Below are positions 343 through 39,503 of a stretch of DNA of 39,888 bases, in pieces. Within the stretch, counting starts at the first letter, position 1. Each line of letters begins with the position of its first letter. The stretch is from IMG/VR virus record IMGVR_UViG_3300036792_000137, positions 1 to 39,888 of that record, one strand, 5' to 3'. The notes under the pieces are model-generated. The model saw only the letters and a program-made list of their open reading frames with translations. It was not told where the DNA came from and ran no database searches. The translations under genes and the position numbers were made by a program. This DNA comes from a virus.

Positions 343-774
343 ATGAACACCTTCACCCATGCCGCACCTGTTGCGGAGAACCGCCGACTGAACTTCCTGC
401 CGAAGATGTTCGGCACCAACTATTTTCTGAACGGTGAGGCCTCGCTGTTCGACTTCGCCCATGCCCTGATGCCTGACTATGCGGGCGGTCACTGGGAGTT
501 CTTTCACCGCACGGGCGATGGTGTGCACTTCGCCGTTCCGAGCATGCCGGATGCAAGCCGCCTCTGTGTGAGCGGCAATTACTTTGACCGTGAAGTGTCG
601 GCACAGGCGGCTGGCATAATCCTGTCGCTTTTTGCCCTGAACGCAATGGCTCACCGTGCCTCGTCCCGAGGTGATGAAACCGGAACCGACTTCCTCGCAG
701 ACCGGTATTACGCCCTGCGTGACTATGCGAAAGATCACCCTGACCGCGCTGCGATCTTCGCCGCCATTGACTGA
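343..774 (+). CDS. klcA: Antirestriction protein, KlcA/ArdB family
   Basis: The 143-residue protein matches the KlcA/ArdB family along its length: RLNFLPKMFGTNYFLNGEA (about 15-33), DYAGGHWEF (about 45-53), the SAQAAGIILSLFALNAMA helix and the C-terminal YYALRDYAKDHPDRAAIF. Family members inhibit type I restriction enzymes in vivo, and this length (about 140) is typical. A longer reading from 265 exists, but family similarity begins only after 343, so 343 is used. The gene is between a small lipoprotein and a HicB-like HTH gene, in an operon of accessory genes that would protect the incoming genome or change the lysogen. Confidence 0.92.
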   Translation: MNTFTHAAPVAENRRLNFLPKMFGTNYFLNGEASLFDFAHALMPDYAGGHWEFFHRTGDGVHFAVPSMPDASRLCVSGNYFDREVSAQAAGIILSLFALNAMAHRASSRGDETGTDFLADRYYALRDYAKDHPDRAAIFAAID

Positions 775-7197: not shown

Positions 7198-7234
7198 AGG
7201 AGGATCGCCCGTGCAAGCGGGCGCTAAACCATGA
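7198..7234 (+). promoter_or_regulatory. SD, 7-codon uORF and hairpin before ParB/J gene
   Basis: AGGAGG (7198-7203) is 27 bases from the gene's ATG (7231), too far for normal initiation. Two things lie between. A GTG at 7211 with ideal 7-base spacing opens a 7-codon frame ending at TGA 7232-7234, overlapping the ATG. And CGCCCG/CGGGCG (7206-7223) forms a hairpin whose loop can close as a GCAA tetraloop. Folding the hairpin would leave about 9 bases between SD and ATG. Either coupling or hairpin-bridged initiation is possible. Confidence 0.55.
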
Positions 7235-8430
7235 GCCTCAATCTCGATCAGATTCGTATCGACGGCGGCACGCAGTCCCGTGCAACGATCCATGATACGA
7301 CCGTCAGCGAATATGCCGACTCGCTTGAACGCGGTGTCGAGTTGCCGCCCGTGACGGTGTTCTTCGATGGTGTGTCCTACTGGCTCGCAGACGGCTTCCA
7401 CCGGTACCACGCGCACAGAAGGAACGGCGTGACGGATATCAAAGCTGATGTGCAGAACGGCACGCAGGCAGATGCGAAGCTGTATTCGTACGGAGCAAAT
7501 CAAGCACACGGCCTGCGACGCACCAATGCCGACAAGCGCAATGCAGTCGTTGGCATGCTGACTAACTTCGCTGAGTGGGCCGACAACCGCATTGCGATAC
7601 ACGTTGGTGTAAGTCATGTGACTGTCAGAGCCACCCGTAAAACTCTTGAATCGACTTGTCAAATTGACAAGTCAAAAAGTAGGGAAGGTGCGGACGGCAG
7701 GACGTACAAGGCACACAGAAACCCGAAGCCTGCGGCAGAGGATCAGCCAGCAGCCGAAGCGGTCACGCCGGTTGCCGTGCCTGCTGAACCGGAGCCGATC
7801 ATGAACGAGCCGAAGCTAAAGCCTGTGAAGCTGCCGAAGCCTGAACGCAAGCAGGGTTACGTCTCGATGTGCACGCAGCACGGCCTGATCACGGCATCGG
7901 CAGGCGCAAGCACGCGCAATCGTGTGCGGGACCAGATTCTCGCCTTGAACGGCTGGGCGTCGATGCCTGATGCCCGTCTCATGACTGATGACGAACATGC
8001 ACTACTGACGGCGGCTGTACTCACGCTTGTAGACCGGAAAGAGCCGCTGGCCGACCGCCTTGCTGCACATCGTGAGGAAGTCAAAACATTATCCGAGACA
8101 GCAGTACACAAGTTCGAGCGGCTCGTCGCCCGTCAGATCGCCTTGCAACGCGAAGTGTTCGATGACGAGGTGCGCAAGGCGGCGAACGCCGCCATCCCTG
8201 AACGCATTGCCGTCTATAAGGAGCTTTCAGAAAAGGCAGAGAAAAAACTTAACCGTTACACGCTGATCACGCGCGGCATTAAAGGTGATATCAGCGAGAG
8301 CGACTATCGCTATCTGATTCAGGCACTGCACCCTGACCGTGCACCCGACCCGGTGAAGCTGGCGAAGTGCTACGACATTATCCGCAGTCTCGAACGGTAC
8401 GTCAGGGAAGTGAGTTCGTGCGAGGACTGA
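7231..8430 (+). CDS. ParB-like protein with coiled coil and J-domain-like HPD end
   Basis: A 399-residue protein. Residues 1-100 form a ParB/Srx-type N-terminal domain with GFHRYHAHRRNG (55-66). A helix-turn-helix follows (about 115-140, IAIHVGVSHVTVRATRKTL). A proline-rich linker (about 165-205), a globular region (207-270) and a likely coiled coil (about 285-340) lead to a short end resembling J-domain helices II and III with HPDR at 367-370. ParB-type domains bind CTP or DNA; the HPD in DnaJ proteins contacts Hsp70. It precedes the exonuclease and RecT genes, so a role in recombination or replication is likely; a partition role is not supported by a parA. Confidence 0.8.
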   Translation: MSLNLDQIRIDGGTQSRATIHDTTVSEYADSLERGVELPPVTVFFDGVSYWLADGFHRYHAHRRNGVTDIKADVQNGTQADAKLYSYGANQAHGLRRTNADKRNAVVGMLTNFAEWADNRIAIHVGVSHVTVRATRKTLESTCQIDKSKSREGADGRTYKAHRNPKPAAEDQPAAEAVTPVAVPAEPEPIMNEPKLKPVKLPKPERKQGYVSMCTQHGLITASAGASTRNRVRDQILALNGWASMPDARLMTDDEHALLTAAVLTLVDRKEPLADRLAAHREEVKTLSETAVHKFERLVARQIALQREVFDDEVRKAANAAIPERIAVYKELSEKAEKKLNRYTLITRGIKGDISESDYRYLIQALHPDRAPDPVKLAKCYDIIRSLERYVREVSSCED

Positions 8431-35004: not shown

Positions 35005-36831
35005 CTACAGGAAAAAAATCTGGTATTCCGGTTGACGCTCGGTAGCACCTGCGAGCGCAAGTGCAACGGCCATCGTCAGGGCGACCAGTCCGTCAATGCG
35101 GCCAGTCGCCTTGCGTTTGTTGAAAATGCGGTTGTTCTTCGGGTCGGTCTCGGTGACCGCACTTGAGACGTTCCACCGAAGGCAGGGATTCCATGCGACC
35201 CGCAGCTTGCGGTCGAACACAAGCTGTTCCATCAGTTCGATGGAGCGGGGCATCCACAGGCCTGACTCCGCGGCGCGGTGAAAGCCTTGCCCGTGCGGCA
35301 CGAGCTTCAGTGACAGGGCAGCGTCGTCAAGGTCTTGTTCGAAGTACTTGATGCGGTACGGGTCGAACGCAATGCCGGTGATCGTCAGCACGGCATCGAG
35401 TTCTGCGAGCCGCGTCACCACGTCGCCATAGTTCACGGCGCGGCCCTTCGATGCATGCATGAAGCCTGCCTTGACCCATACCGGGTACGGCACATGGTCA
35501 CGCCGTGCACGTTCCTCGATAGTTTCGTCAGGTGTCCAGAAGTCCACCAGGGCATCAACGCTGCCATCCTCCTGCACACAGGCAGCAGCGAGCGCGGTGA
35601 GGTCGCGCGTGCCGGACAGGTCAAGCCCGCAGAGAACTTCGCGGCCTGTCATGCGCTCGATCAGCGCATCACGCTCACTGAGTGCCTGTGTGACGACCTT
35701 CGCCCACAGTCCTGCACCTTCAGTCTGCGGGGCCATCTGCTGCACGAGCGTCGGTGCGCCGACCTCGCAGCACGTCCACAGGTCGGTACTGATCCACGGA
35801 TCAGCAGCATCGACCCACTGGCAGAAATTCAGCCGGCGCACGGTCGATTCAAGCGAAGGCATGCCGCGAGCCTGCCGAACCTGTTCTTCAAGGTAGGACC
35901 GCTGGATGGTCTGCCCGAGTGACGGGTTCGCCTTCACCCAGCACGCTTCGTCCTCGAATGGGTCGTCGCCTTCATCAAGCGAACAGATGAAGGAAAAGAA
36001 TGCGTCGTCGTCAAGCTGCTGCGCGGCGATCTTCTGCCCGTACTCGTGCTTCTCGTAGCAGAGCGACGTGCGATCAAAGCCTGAATTCGTGATCATGAAA
36101 ATGAGCGGCTGGCGGCGTCCTTTTTTCCCGGCCTGCATCATGTCGATAACGGTGCGATCCTTGTGTTCGTGAATCTCGTCAATGAGTGCACAGTGAGGAC
36201 GCGGACCCGACTGGCCGGTGCTGTCACTCGCAATCGTGCGGAAGAACGAAGCCTTCGCGATGTAGGCGAGATTGAACGTGCGCTCGGCACGGCCTGACTT
36301 CGTGATGCGGGCAGTCAGTGCCGGTGACAGATCGACCATTGCCACGGCATCACGAAACAGGATTTGCGCCTGTTCCTTTTTCGTCGCGGCGGCATACACC
36401 TCGGCGCGTTCCTCGTTGTCCGACACGAGCATGTACAGGCCGACACCTGCGGCAAGCGGTGACTTGCCCGAGCCTTTCGCAGATTCGATATAGGCCTCGC
36501 GGAAGCGCCGCGAGCCGTCCGCACGCTTCCAGCCGAACAGGGAGCCGACGACGAAGCCTTCCCACGGCAGCAGGCCGAACGGCACACCCTCAAACTCACC
36601 GCCGTTCAGCCGCAGCACGTCAGGGTAAAAATTGATGACCCGCATCGCGGCTTCGATATCCCACTTCAGCCCACGGGCCTTGCCGTGCTTCAGGTCGTGC
36701 AGGTGTCGGCGGCAGGCGGCACGCACGTCGGGGCCTGCCACGATCTCACCGTTACTGACGTCCCGCGCGTACTGCGTGACAGGATCACCGCCCGCGTCAG
36801 AAGTAGGCTTTTGCGGGGTCTTTCTGATCAT
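35005..36831 (-). CDS. terL: Terminase large subunit
   Basis: A 608-residue packaging motor. Walker A is AKGSGKS (118-124), Walker B CALIDE (214-219). The nuclease half begins GLDLSGTRDLT with Asp404, and IAFDPYR gives Asp490, both expected metal ligands of the RNase H-like nuclease. It packs DNA into the prohead through the portal and cuts at the end. It starts inside the end of the terS gene (35-base overlap). The P27-type TerS before it agrees with cos-type or related packaging. Confidence 0.95.
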   Translation of the reverse strand: MIRKTPQKPTSDAGGDPVTQYARDVSNGEIVAGPDVRAACRRHLHDLKHGKARGLKWDIEAAMRVINFYPDVLRLNGGEFEGVPFGLLPWEGFVVGSLFGWKRADGSRRFREAYIESAKGSGKSPLAAGVGLYMLVSDNEERAEVYAAATKKEQAQILFRDAVAMVDLSPALTARITKSGRAERTFNLAYIAKASFFRTIASDSTGQSGPRPHCALIDEIHEHKDRTVIDMMQAGKKGRRQPLIFMITNSGFDRTSLCYEKHEYGQKIAAQQLDDDAFFSFICSLDEGDDPFEDEACWVKANPSLGQTIQRSYLEEQVRQARGMPSLESTVRRLNFCQWVDAADPWISTDLWTCCEVGAPTLVQQMAPQTEGAGLWAKVVTQALSERDALIERMTGREVLCGLDLSGTRDLTALAAACVQEDGSVDALVDFWTPDETIEERARRDHVPYPVWVKAGFMHASKGRAVNYGDVVTRLAELDAVLTITGIAFDPYRIKYFEQDLDDAALSLKLVPHGQGFHRAAESGLWMPRSIELMEQLVFDRKLRVAWNPCLRWNVSSAVTETDPKNNRIFNKRKATGRIDGLVALTMAVALALAGATERQPEYQIFFL

Positions 36832-37273
36832 CAGGATTCACGCGGATATTGGCGCGTGCCGAAGGTGACAGGCCGAACTCGGCGGCAAGGTGCACGTACT
36901 GATACGCGGCACGGTTCGCGGTGCCGATCAGCGGGTGCTGTATCCAGTTCCCGTTGGTCGTCTTGTAAAGCAGGGGACGGCCCATCTTTTCGAGCGCTTC
37001 CTCGGCATCGACCCAGCGACCGTAGGCGGCACACACTGCGGCGAGTGCGCCGCGATCCAGATGCGTGAGAAGGCCGAGCATGAACAGGTGGGCCGAAAGG
37101 CGGTCCCACTCGGCACGCGCAGACCGTGAGAGGTGGGTCGGCGGATCGGGTATCGCGAGGTCGGGCTTCGGCTCGTACGGGTTGCGGTTCTTATGCGTCG
37201 TGCCTTCGATGACTCGCAGGTGCGTCGGCTTACGTGGAACTGTGCCGCGACCTTTTCGCTGGTTTCCTGCCAT
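36797..37273 (-). CDS. terS: Terminase small subunit (P27 family)
   Basis: A 158-residue protein with the P27 pattern: PRKPTHLRVIEGTTHKNRNP (about 14-33), DPPTHLSRSARAEWDRL (about 43-59), then GALAAVCAAYGRWVDAEEAL. The C-terminal end GLSPSARANIRV is usual too. It binds the packaging site and presents DNA to TerL. It starts 44 bases inside the end of the Mom-like gene and its own end overlaps terL by 35 bases. Confidence 0.92.
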   Translation of the reverse strand: MAGNQRKGRGTVPRKPTHLRVIEGTTHKNRNPYEPKPDLAIPDPPTHLSRSARAEWDRLSAHLFMLGLLTHLDRGALAAVCAAYGRWVDAEEALEKMGRPLLYKTTNGNWIQHPLIGTANRAAYQYVHLAAEFGLSPSARANIRVNPDDQKDPAKAYF

Positions 37274-38021
37274 GTTTCACCGTTTCGAGTATGGAGCGTG
37301 AGGGTCGGTGTTGCGCCGCCGCTGTACCGGTGGAACCGGTCATCGCCTGCTTCTCACGCGTGATTGAATCGGCCTGCTGTTTCGGGTACGGCTTGGCGAG
37401 CGGTGCGACCTGTGCCCGCATGTCGTCATCAAGCGGCAGGACATAGCGGTGCTTATCGCCGCCGTCGATGCGGGTTGCTGCCGGGTCTACATTCGCGATC
37501 AGCCACTTCAGGTTGAAACCGGTGCGACCGTATCGGCTGCTGGCGGTCTTGCCGTGCAGCACTTCGCCATGAACGACGACGCGCGTTGTCTTGCCGACGC
37601 CGGTATAGGTCCAGCCCATCGCCTGATAGATGCCGCCGTGATGGCCCTGCATCGTGTCGGCGTAGGAGACGATCAGCCGCAGTCCCGGCGAGGACTTGCG
37701 CAGGAAGCGGATCGCGAGCATGACGATCCGCGACACGGGGGTGCGGTGGTCCCGCAGTGCGACCCGTGAGAGTTCGCACACCTCGGTCTGTGTGAGGCCG
37801 AACGGATTGCCGATGTGACGGTTCGCACCGCGACTGAAAAGCACGATGCCGATAAACCGGTCACCTTCCCATGCACCGACCTTCACGTTCGTGCCGACCG
37901 GGACCGAGCGCGAATAGTGCCAATGTCCGCAGGCGTACTGAACAGCGTCGTCGGTCGCCCAGTCCACCCGCAGGGCAGTTTTCGCCGCTGTCGGTACCGG
38001 CACCTGCACGGGCGAATTCAT
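37230..38021 (-). CDS. Mom-like DNA modification enzyme (GNAT fold)
   Basis: A 263-residue protein with the Mom family pattern: CGHWHYSRSVP (31-41), VKVGAWEGDRFIGIVLFSRG, ELSRVALRD (83-91), and LIVSYADTMQGHHGG with IYQAMGWTYTG (116-141), then KHRYVLPLDD near 190-199. The fold is that of GNAT acyltransferases. Mom of phage Mu turns adenine into N6-methylcarbamoyl-adenine and protects DNA from restriction. This protein (263 aa) is a bit longer than Mu Mom (about 231 aa), with a lysine/arginine-rich tail. It overlaps the ParB-like gene by ATGA, so both are co-translated just before terS. The substrate here is not proved. Confidence 0.85.
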   Translation of the reverse strand: MNSPVQVPVPTAAKTALRVDWATDDAVQYACGHWHYSRSVPVGTNVKVGAWEGDRFIGIVLFSRGANRHIGNPFGLTQTEVCELSRVALRDHRTPVSRIVMLAIRFLRKSSPGLRLIVSYADTMQGHHGGIYQAMGWTYTGVGKTTRVVVHGEVLHGKTASSRYGRTGFNLKWLIANVDPAATRIDGGDKHRYVLPLDDDMRAQVAPLAKPYPKQQADSITREKQAMTGSTGTAAAQHRPSRSILETVKHGRKPAKRSRHSST

Positions 38022-38551
38022 GGCCTCGGCACCTCACCGCCGCAGTGCGGGCAGATGATCGGCTGAAGCTGTGAGAGGTCGCCCGAGTCACCCGCGCTGC
38101 CGGGGCCAAAATCGCCAGCCTTCGCCAGTGCGTCCATCTCGTCGTTCGTGAAGCCAAGCAGGCTCAGATCGAACTTGTCGGCGGACAGGGCATCGAGTTC
38201 GACCGCGAGCAGTTCGTCATCCCATGACGACTCGGCCAGCCGGTTATCAGCGAGGACGTAGGCGCGGCGCTGTGCGTCAGTCCATCCCTTCGCGACCATC
38301 ACCGGCAGGCGCTTCCAGTCGAGTTGACGTGCGGCCATGACACGGCCATGTCCCGCGATGATCGTGCCATCTTCAGCGGCCAGTACGGGCATCGTGAAAC
38401 CCCATTCACGCATGCTTGCGGCGAGCTGCGCCACCTGCGTGGGTGAGTGCTGTTTCGCATTGCGTGCGTAGGGAATCAGCTTTTCGATATCCCATAGCTG
38501 CACCTTCGCTGCGGGCCAGTTCGGTCCATCAGTTTTTGCAGGCTGGGTCAT
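38018..38551 (-). CDS. ParB N-domain protein paired with Mom
   Basis: A 177-residue protein with a ParB/Srx-type domain: LIPYARNAKQHS (about 25-36), IREWGF-like SMREWGFTMPVL (about 46-57), and the box AGHGRVMAARQL (66-77). The C-terminal part has LLGFTNDEMDAL and ends ICPHCGGEVPRP (C167, C170). In many phages this domain is fused to a DNA methyltransferase; here that part is missing and the Mom-like gene overlaps directly. The start ATG at 38551 is preferred to TTG at 38557. It may target or license Mom to DNA sites; this is an inference. Confidence 0.85.
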   Translation of the reverse strand: MTQPAKTDGPNWPAAKVQLWDIEKLIPYARNAKQHSPTQVAQLAASMREWGFTMPVLAAEDGTIIAGHGRVMAARQLDWKRLPVMVAKGWTDAQRRAYVLADNRLAESSWDDELLAVELDALSADKFDLSLLGFTNDEMDALAKAGDFGPGSAGDSGDLSQLQPIICPHCGGEVPRP

Positions 38552-38629
38552 GGTCAAATCCTATGGAGGCAGGCCCGGCGATAGAGCGGATTTCTGAAAA
38601 TAAATGTGCTCACGGGGTGTCCTGCGAAA

Positions 38630-38688: not shown

Positions 38689-38985
38689 TCAGCGGGAGCG
38701 CGGCGGCGGCGGCTCAATGAGTGACCCGAACACGTCGCAGCCACCGGCACGCAGTCCTGCATCGGCACGGGTCTTCGCTTCGTGACACGGCACACATAGC
38801 GATTGCAGGTTGGCAGGGGCATCAGTGCCGCCCTTGAACAGTGGCTTGATGTGGTCTACCTGTGAGGCCTCAGTGACGAAACCCTTCGCCATGCAGTGAG
38901 CGCACAGAGGATGCATACGAAGTTGGCGTTCGCGTATGCGCATCCACTTGCGGCCACGGGTGCGCTGTACAGGGGGCAGTGTCAC
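38689..38985 (-). CDS. HNH endonuclease
   Basis: A 98-residue nuclease with two CXXC pairs (C28/C31 and C64/C67) and the catalytic VDHIKPL (H45), N59 and H68, the HNH pattern. Small HNH proteins next to terminase genes are needed in HK97-like phages for cutting at cos with TerS/TerL. Here the ParB-Mom pair separates it from terS. The start is GTG, overlapping the lipoprotein stop. Confidence 0.9.
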   Translation of the reverse strand: MTLPPVQRTRGRKWMRIRERQLRMHPLCAHCMAKGFVTEASQVDHIKPLFKGGTDAPANLQSLCVPCHEAKTRADAGLRAGGCDVFGSLIEPPPPRSR

Positions 38986-39263: not shown

Positions 39264-39503
39264 ATGAAAGTTGTTTTTGCCCTGGCCGTTGCTGCATCCC
39301 TGAGCGGGTGTGCGGCCTTCTGTAATTCAAACGATGTTGGCTGTATCAACAAGGCGAACGCCATCAGTGCAGGCATTGCCGCAGGTTCGGTCGCGGTACT
39401 GGCCGGTGCTGCTGCTGCCGCTGCTGCCGCCCGTCCTGTGTATGTCGAGCCTGTGTATGTCGTGCCTGTGCGCCGCTGCTACTACGGCGGTTACTGCTAC
39501 TGA
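39264..39503 (+). CDS. Small lipoprotein with tyrosine-rich tail
   Basis: A 79-residue protein: signal peptide with lipobox LSGC (lipidated cysteine 16), then a small domain with a second hydrophobic helix (about 35-57, alanine-rich), then PVYVEPVYVVPV, a repeated strand, and RRCYYGGYCY at the end. It looks like surface-exposed lysogeny proteins. First gene of the rightward accessory operon, with GAGGAAG upstream. Function unknown. Confidence 0.65.
   Translation: MKVVFALAVAASLSGCAAFCNSNDVGCINKANAISAGIAAGSVAVLAGAAAAAAAARPVYVEPVYVVPVRRCYYGGYCY

Follow-up and report, generated by a model that had tools for sequence, protein, structure and literature searches.

A ParB-fold protein with a partner-matched C-terminal tail adjoins a Mom-family enzyme in a phage genome

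The window, that is, the whole stretch of DNA that was analysed (39,888 nucleotides; positions 1 to 39,888 of IMG/VR record IMGVR_UViG_3300036792_000137), carries on its minus strand the gene order HNH, ParB, Mom, P27 TerS and TerL. The genes and features referred to below are as follows.

38689..38985, minus strand: HNH endonuclease, upstream of ParB (PF01844, E 1.5e-12)
38018..38551, minus strand: ParB-fold (ParB/Srx) gene, 177 aa from ATG
Within 38018..38551, minus strand: box-II (P-motif) of ParB, G67-H68-G69-R70
38021..38122, minus strand: ParB tail, residues 144-177, ending GDFGPGSAGDSGDLSQLQPIICPHCGGEVPRP, which marks ParBs beside the window's Mom type
38042..38053, minus strand: putative CPxC zinc-knuckle motif in the ParB tail, C167-P-x-C170, from conservation
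37230..38021, minus strand: Mom-family GNAT-fold gene, putative DNA-modification enzyme, 263 aa (PF25680)
37731..37733, minus strand: Ser97 of Mom, equivalent of the Mu catalytic Ser124, from alignments
37233..37382, minus strand: Mom C-terminal extension, residues 214-263, partly overlapping TerS, mostly predicted to be disordered
36797..37273, minus strand: P27-family small terminase TerS (PF05119, E 6e-25)
35005..36831, minus strand: large terminase TerL (PF20441, E 5e-34; PF03354, E 3e-28)
475..771, plus strand: KlcA-type antirestriction domain at a separate locus (PF03230, E 3.7e-26, above the cut-off)

Either TTG (38018-38557) or ATG (38018-38551) could serve as the parB start, of which the ATG is more likely, with an AGGA 7 nt upstream. 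The parB and mom genes overlap by 4 nt (ATGA), and mom and the TerS gene by 44 nt. A preliminary description of this DNA had reported the ATGA overlap, the position of the pair between HNH and TerS ahead of the packaging genes, and a KlcA in the same genome. The position was confirmed by gene calls and Pfam and the KlcA by PF03230 at 475-771 (+), while the ATGA form of the overlap, although present, proved to be limited to few genomes.

The window Mom matched PF25680 at 151.6 bits (cut-off 27.1, E 3e-44), phrog_1384 (E 3e-52) and 8bv8, the Mu Mom crystal structure entitled 'inactive mutant S124A' (phmmer E 1.9e-8), with approximately 27% identity to Mu Mom. An AlphaFold2 model (pLDDT 85, with a disordered C-terminus) had 8bv8 as its best structural match by far (E 1.9e-13, TM 0.69-0.73). 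The Mu Ser124 motif NSESRA aligned with PVSRI in the window Mom, which contains Ser97, and a serine occupied this position in 48 of 49 relatives, 10 of 10 Mu-type Moms and 5 of 5 solo Moms. Across 64 Moms from three groups Ser97, HYS, E83, R86, S119, D122 and Y132 were retained with rare exceptions, and the core motifs HYS, ELxR, SxAD and GxxYxA were common to the window Mom and Mu Mom. Since the fold, the catalytic serine and the core residues are shared with Mu Mom, the window Mom probably performs Mom chemistry.

The resemblance to Mu Mom (PF25680; 8bv8) thus covers the fold, the Ser124/Ser97 equivalence, the shared core and the family score, whereas Mu has Com instead of ParB and its Mom lacks the C-terminal extension, ending at PYPK. 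In the mom-com operon of Mu it is com that overlaps the start of mom, while in the window the overlapping upstream gene is ParB. The extension had a pLDDT below 50 across most of residues 218-251, and one of 15 or more residues was found in 72 of 92 Mom relatives. The motifs GTAAVQHRPSRSI and GGATPTRTL recurred in the extensions of ParB-linked Moms and were absent, like the extension itself, from the marine solo Moms examined.

The window ParB scored 22.5 bits against Pfam ParB_N (PF02195), under the curated cut-off of 26.3, and was matched by phrog_620 (E 8e-49) and by phrog_498, the ParB-methyltransferase fusion family (E 5.5e-47), over residues 8-150 only. As stated in the preliminary description, no methyltransferase is fused to it: the phrog_498 alignment stops at residue 150, no methyltransferase domain was found in the chain, and the last ~34 residues form a tail containing CPHCG. 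An AlphaFold2 model built with 65 relatives reached a pLDDT of 91.1, and its best PDB matches in Foldseek were Noc, archaeal ParB-N, PadC, ParB-CDP, KorB and sulfiredoxin (E 1e-6 to 1e-4 for Noc, ParB, KorB and PadC). On the basis of this predicted fold and the PHROG matches the protein is placed in the ParB/Srx superfamily; membership of the Pfam family is not claimed. The N-terminal fold and box-II are like those of canonical ParB, Noc and KorB, but both the HTH and the C-terminal dimerisation domain are absent from the 177-aa protein according to Pfam and the AlphaFold2 model. ParB-fold proteins bind CTP, ATP or GTP via the box-II arginine, which is needed for NTP binding in those assayed (PMC12704722). 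The conservation of G67, H68 and R70 was at least 90% in 65 ParBs, and nucleotide binding by the window ParB is probable from its sequence.

Nine columns were invariant in 23 diverse ParBs beside the window's Mom type, and five of the nine (F148, L159, C167, P168 and C170) fell within the last 30 residues. The tail consensus of ParBs beside this Mom type was DQGxLD...CPxCGxEF, and residues 165-174, around CPHCG, were predicted by AlphaFold2 to form a zinc-knuckle-like beta hairpin (block pLDDT 82-88). His92 and His127 of Mom were invariant in the window's Mom type, and these two residues together with the two ParB cysteines are a candidate zinc site.

A scan of viral contigs by alignment with the window Mom returned at least 581 relatives, of which the best 80 were retained; each scan keeps its best 80 loci, many of them related, and the counts are not frequencies. 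In 79 of these best 80, ParB preceded mom on the same strand, and the remaining locus (L074) starts at a contig edge. The pair is far beyond chance, as it recurs in 79 of the 80 closest relatives. Frames of parB and mom overlapped in nearly all loci, ATGA being one form among several, while at L034 ParB was ~390 nt from mom. The same gene order was found in a Caballeronia pedi prophage (Mom identity 84%) and at L003 (~50%), and an HNH gene was upstream, as in the window, at L016 and L003. Among the genome contigs searched, C. pedi was the only species with a close Mom relative, and no Mom was found in 369 genomes of its class beyond C. pedi itself; with Mom in 1 of those 369 genomes it is mainly a phage gene. 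Cultured phages with the pair included Enterococcus phiEf11, Microbacterium Appa, Arthrobacter BarretLemon, in which one small ORF separates ParB and Mom, and Salinibacter B2_17. A tRNA-Gly gene adjoins mom in Appa (L013 4657-4731, minus strand) and in Salinibacter phage B2_17 (L015 4648-4720, plus strand); the idea of a glycyl-tRNA donor was dropped, as a search of 60 further loci and of the window with ARAGORN yielded no such gene.

The largest gene starting no more than 2.5 kb 3' of the pair was identified in 56 loci, and in most of these it belonged to a terminase or portal family. The terminase families were Terminase_6N (14), TerL_ATPase (8), GpA nuclease (6) and Terminase_3 (6), and the portal families P22 (6), DUF4055 (5), SU10 (3) and others. 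As several terminase lineages lie downstream, the placement ahead of packaging genes is general. In Appa and BarretLemon the pair sits elsewhere, near an SSB or polymerase processivity factor. Consistent with the preliminary description, which had noted that Mu Mom has no such partner, no ParB was near mom in the 32 Mu-type loci fetched, and none was found beside Mu, its near relatives or the marine Moms L004-L011, some of whose contigs end close to mom. No natural ParB-Mom fusion was found, nor a usable in-frame pair.

An HMM of the DQGxLD...CPxCGxEF tail was built solely from loci collected with Mom (L018-L097). With this HMM 97 of 97 ParBs beside the window's Mom type reached 23 bits or more, and the remaining ParBs stayed at 3 bits or below, apart from four linked to C5-methyltransferases (11-14 bits), which have the CPxCGFEF half of the tail without the DQGxLD segment. 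Viral contigs were also scanned independently with the ParB domain alone, its tail removed, from two distant lineages. Most matches were fused to N4/N6 methyltransferases through the linker GDVWxLGxHRLxCGD, and the ParBs with a DQGxLD...CPxCG tail preceded the window's Mom type in 16 of 16 cases. Other stand-alone ParBs had as partners a C5-methyltransferase fold (PF00145), a TAGT glycosyltransferase (PF20691), an ABC-ATPase-GNAT protein or a Mu-type Mom (PF25680); the non-Mom classes were recognised from motifs, and Pfam was applied to individual examples.

The Mu-type Moms adjoining ParB were used as the query of a second scan. Where there was room upstream, ParB was directly 5' of a Mu-type Mom in 73 copies, and the eight exceptions were mostly second copies of tandem pairs. 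Such tandem copies, mostly after a single ParB, were observed at L298, L317, L321, L322, L326, L332, L350 and L353. ParBs beside the Mu-type Mom have an unrelated ~70-residue tail (EPFQQ-TFTLHDEQ...NENSNGNAL), and a model of it, trained on half of the newly fetched ParBs, scored at least 54 bits in 72 of 72 ParBs beside the Mu-type Mom and at most 6 bits elsewhere. Each of the two Mom types is thus accompanied by a ParB tail of its own. Both tails were absent from the 123 methyltransferase-fused ParBs sampled, and neither scored in ~20 other ParBs, bar a weak CPxCG likeness beside C5-methyltransferases.

Several individual loci had unusual arrangements. At L129 (4001-4783) and L148 a ParB with a ~130-residue C-terminal extension is directly 5' of a TET-associated glycosyltransferase (PF20691), while at L170 and L174 a short-tailed ParB (YxVIVxCDxE) is followed by a protein that joins an ABC-ATPase and a GNAT domain. 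The neighbour of ParB at L173 (4001-4750) is a fusion of histidine phosphatase and cytidylyltransferase, which would be an unusual modification partner.

The ParB domains beside the window's Mom type did not form one clade (AU p 2e-65), with 20 label changes on a large tree and 14 on a carefully built tree of 52 rows. Six of six independent pairs on supported branches pointed in the same direction (p 0.03, a small sample). As the Mom-linked ParBs are polyphyletic, it is the enzyme that the tail tracks. Methyltransferase-fused and Mom-adjacent ParBs had domains as much as 95% identical, with divergence starting at the domain end. The ParB domains of L093 (Mom) and L154 (methyltransferase fusion), for example, were 94.6% identical over 129 aa, and DNA similarity between these loci was limited to the domain and faded at the domain/tail boundary. 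For L049 and L086 the Moms were 75%, the ParB domains 27% and the tails 62% identical, and over all pairs Mom identity was weakly correlated with ParB-domain identity (rho 0.25). These results suggest that phage DNA-modifying enzymes use ParB domains as adaptors that can be exchanged between them.

The reading we lean towards, and consider moderately probable, is a two-subunit phage DNA-modification system in which Mom would be the catalytic subunit and ParB an interchangeable adaptor that recruits Mom via its tail. The idea of a ParB adaptor with the chemistry performed by Mom was put forward in the preliminary description, and the match between tail and partner strengthens it at the level of sequence. 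Mom would most likely carry out an acyl/carbamoyl-type adenine modification. The ParB-fold domain would probably bind nucleotide and/or DNA, and the CPxCG tail may recruit Mom, either docking it directly or assembling with it in a zinc-dependent manner, whereby the adaptor would bring Mom to phage DNA. Transcription just ahead of the terminase genes would allow replicated DNA to be modified before packaging, and the modification may protect it from restriction. Because Mu Mom works without ParB, ParB is dispensable for Mom chemistry as such, and since Serratia phage eta has a ParB homologue and no modified bases (PMC3918226), ParB alone does not imply modification. No biochemistry on any ParB-Mom pair was found in the literature searched.

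We give about even weight to a wider proposition, in which the phage ParB-fold would serve generally as an exchangeable adaptor, perhaps a DNA clamp switched by NTP, and its C-terminal tails would act as a partner code. The domain would supply a function shared by many modification enzymes, while a tail or linker would attach the enzyme. By fusion or with other tails the same domain would be reused for methyltransferases, C5-methyltransferase-fold enzymes, the second Mom type and further enzymes of DNA modification. In such a code the fusion linker would specify N4/N6 methyltransferases, DQGxLD-CPxCG one Mom type, the ~70-residue tail the Mu-type Mom and CPxCGFEF the C5-methyltransferase fold, with other tails for TAGT and ABC-GNAT.

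The main rival to the adaptor reading is a regulatory role, in which ParB is not an enzyme subunit and instead restrains or times Mom, sparing host or prophage DNA. Mu mom has an annotated translational regulator, Com, which acts together with other controls to guard mom, while DndB is a ParB-fold repressor of its own operon (PMC12704722). The gene overlap would fit a control partner, an enzyme-matched tail would also fit an inhibitor, and association and co-swapping would be expected too if ParB regulated Mom. We nevertheless regard a regulator as unlikely, as the in-cis fusion of the same domain to methyltransferases in 123 sampled proteins suits an accessory domain better and the 177-aa ParB shows no DNA-binding HTH. 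A limited chance is likewise given to the tail being a zinc hook that dimerises ParB without contacting Mom. CPxC is a sequence typical of zinc knuckles and offers two ligands per chain only, the tail occupies the place of the missing dimerisation domain of canonical ParB, and its CPxCGFEF half is common to the C5-methyltransferase-linked ParBs. However, a plain dimerisation element should be independent of the partner, while this tail occurs with two partner types only and gives way to the unrelated ~70-residue tail beside the Mu-type Mom.

It is most improbable that ParB is an independent gene for partition, nuclease activity or plasmid maintenance that is merely in one operon with Mom. The names that databases give it (ParB-like partition protein or nuclease) would agree with this, as would the ParB of Psychrobacter phage Y8A, interpreted by its authors as a partition protein (PMC10434257). 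Against it are the absence of an HTH and dimerisation domain, the obligate adjacency to Mom, the tie between tail and partner and the fusion of the domain to methyltransferases. We give very little credence to action of the window Mom on RNA, protein or a small molecule in place of DNA. GNAT folds are chemically versatile and the identity to Mu Mom is low, but the core including the catalytic serine is common to both, and the other partners of the ParB domain are DNA methyltransferases, a TAGT glycosyltransferase and likely DNA-modification enzymes.

Among known systems, the phage ParB-methyltransferase fusions (phrog_498; PMC12704722) come closest in the ParB domain (up to 95% identical), although the window has a separate GNAT enzyme and a CPxCG tail in place of the linker. 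The CmoX carboxymethylcytosine systems (PMC12783734) also have a stand-alone ParBc near a DNA-modification enzyme, with cytosine C5 chemistry as opposed to Mom chemistry. The C5-methyltransferase-linked ParBs sampled share a related CPxCGFEF tail with the window ParB but have no DQGxLD. The preliminary description had suggested that the pair may be a new form of phage DNA modification; its architecture and adaptor idea held up, while the pair itself is widespread and already annotated side by side in public records. Mom and the ParB-methyltransferase fusions are already known as well, and it is the tail-partner rule that is new: neither the ParB-Mom pair nor the rule was described in the literature searched, with key older surveys lying outside that search. 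The role of ParBc next to phage DNA-modification enzymes was called unknown in a 2025 paper (PMC12783734), and Mom goes unmentioned in a survey of ParB-fold proteins from the same year, which covers domain fusions (PMC12704722). The match between tail and partner makes this role experimentally addressable through a ~35-residue tail. If true, it would account for the use of one ParB domain with unrelated chemistries, and modification enzymes not yet known could be traced by the tail of a neighbouring ParB as a sequence tag.

Elsewhere in the window a second, different ParB-like protein of 399 aa is encoded at 7231-8430 on the plus strand (phrog_1033, E 5e-17), directly 5' of a YqaJ/RecE-like exonuclease and RecT. 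A small putative lipoprotein at 39264-39503 (plus strand) is matched weakly by phrog_1119 (Cor superinfection exclusion; E 0.013).
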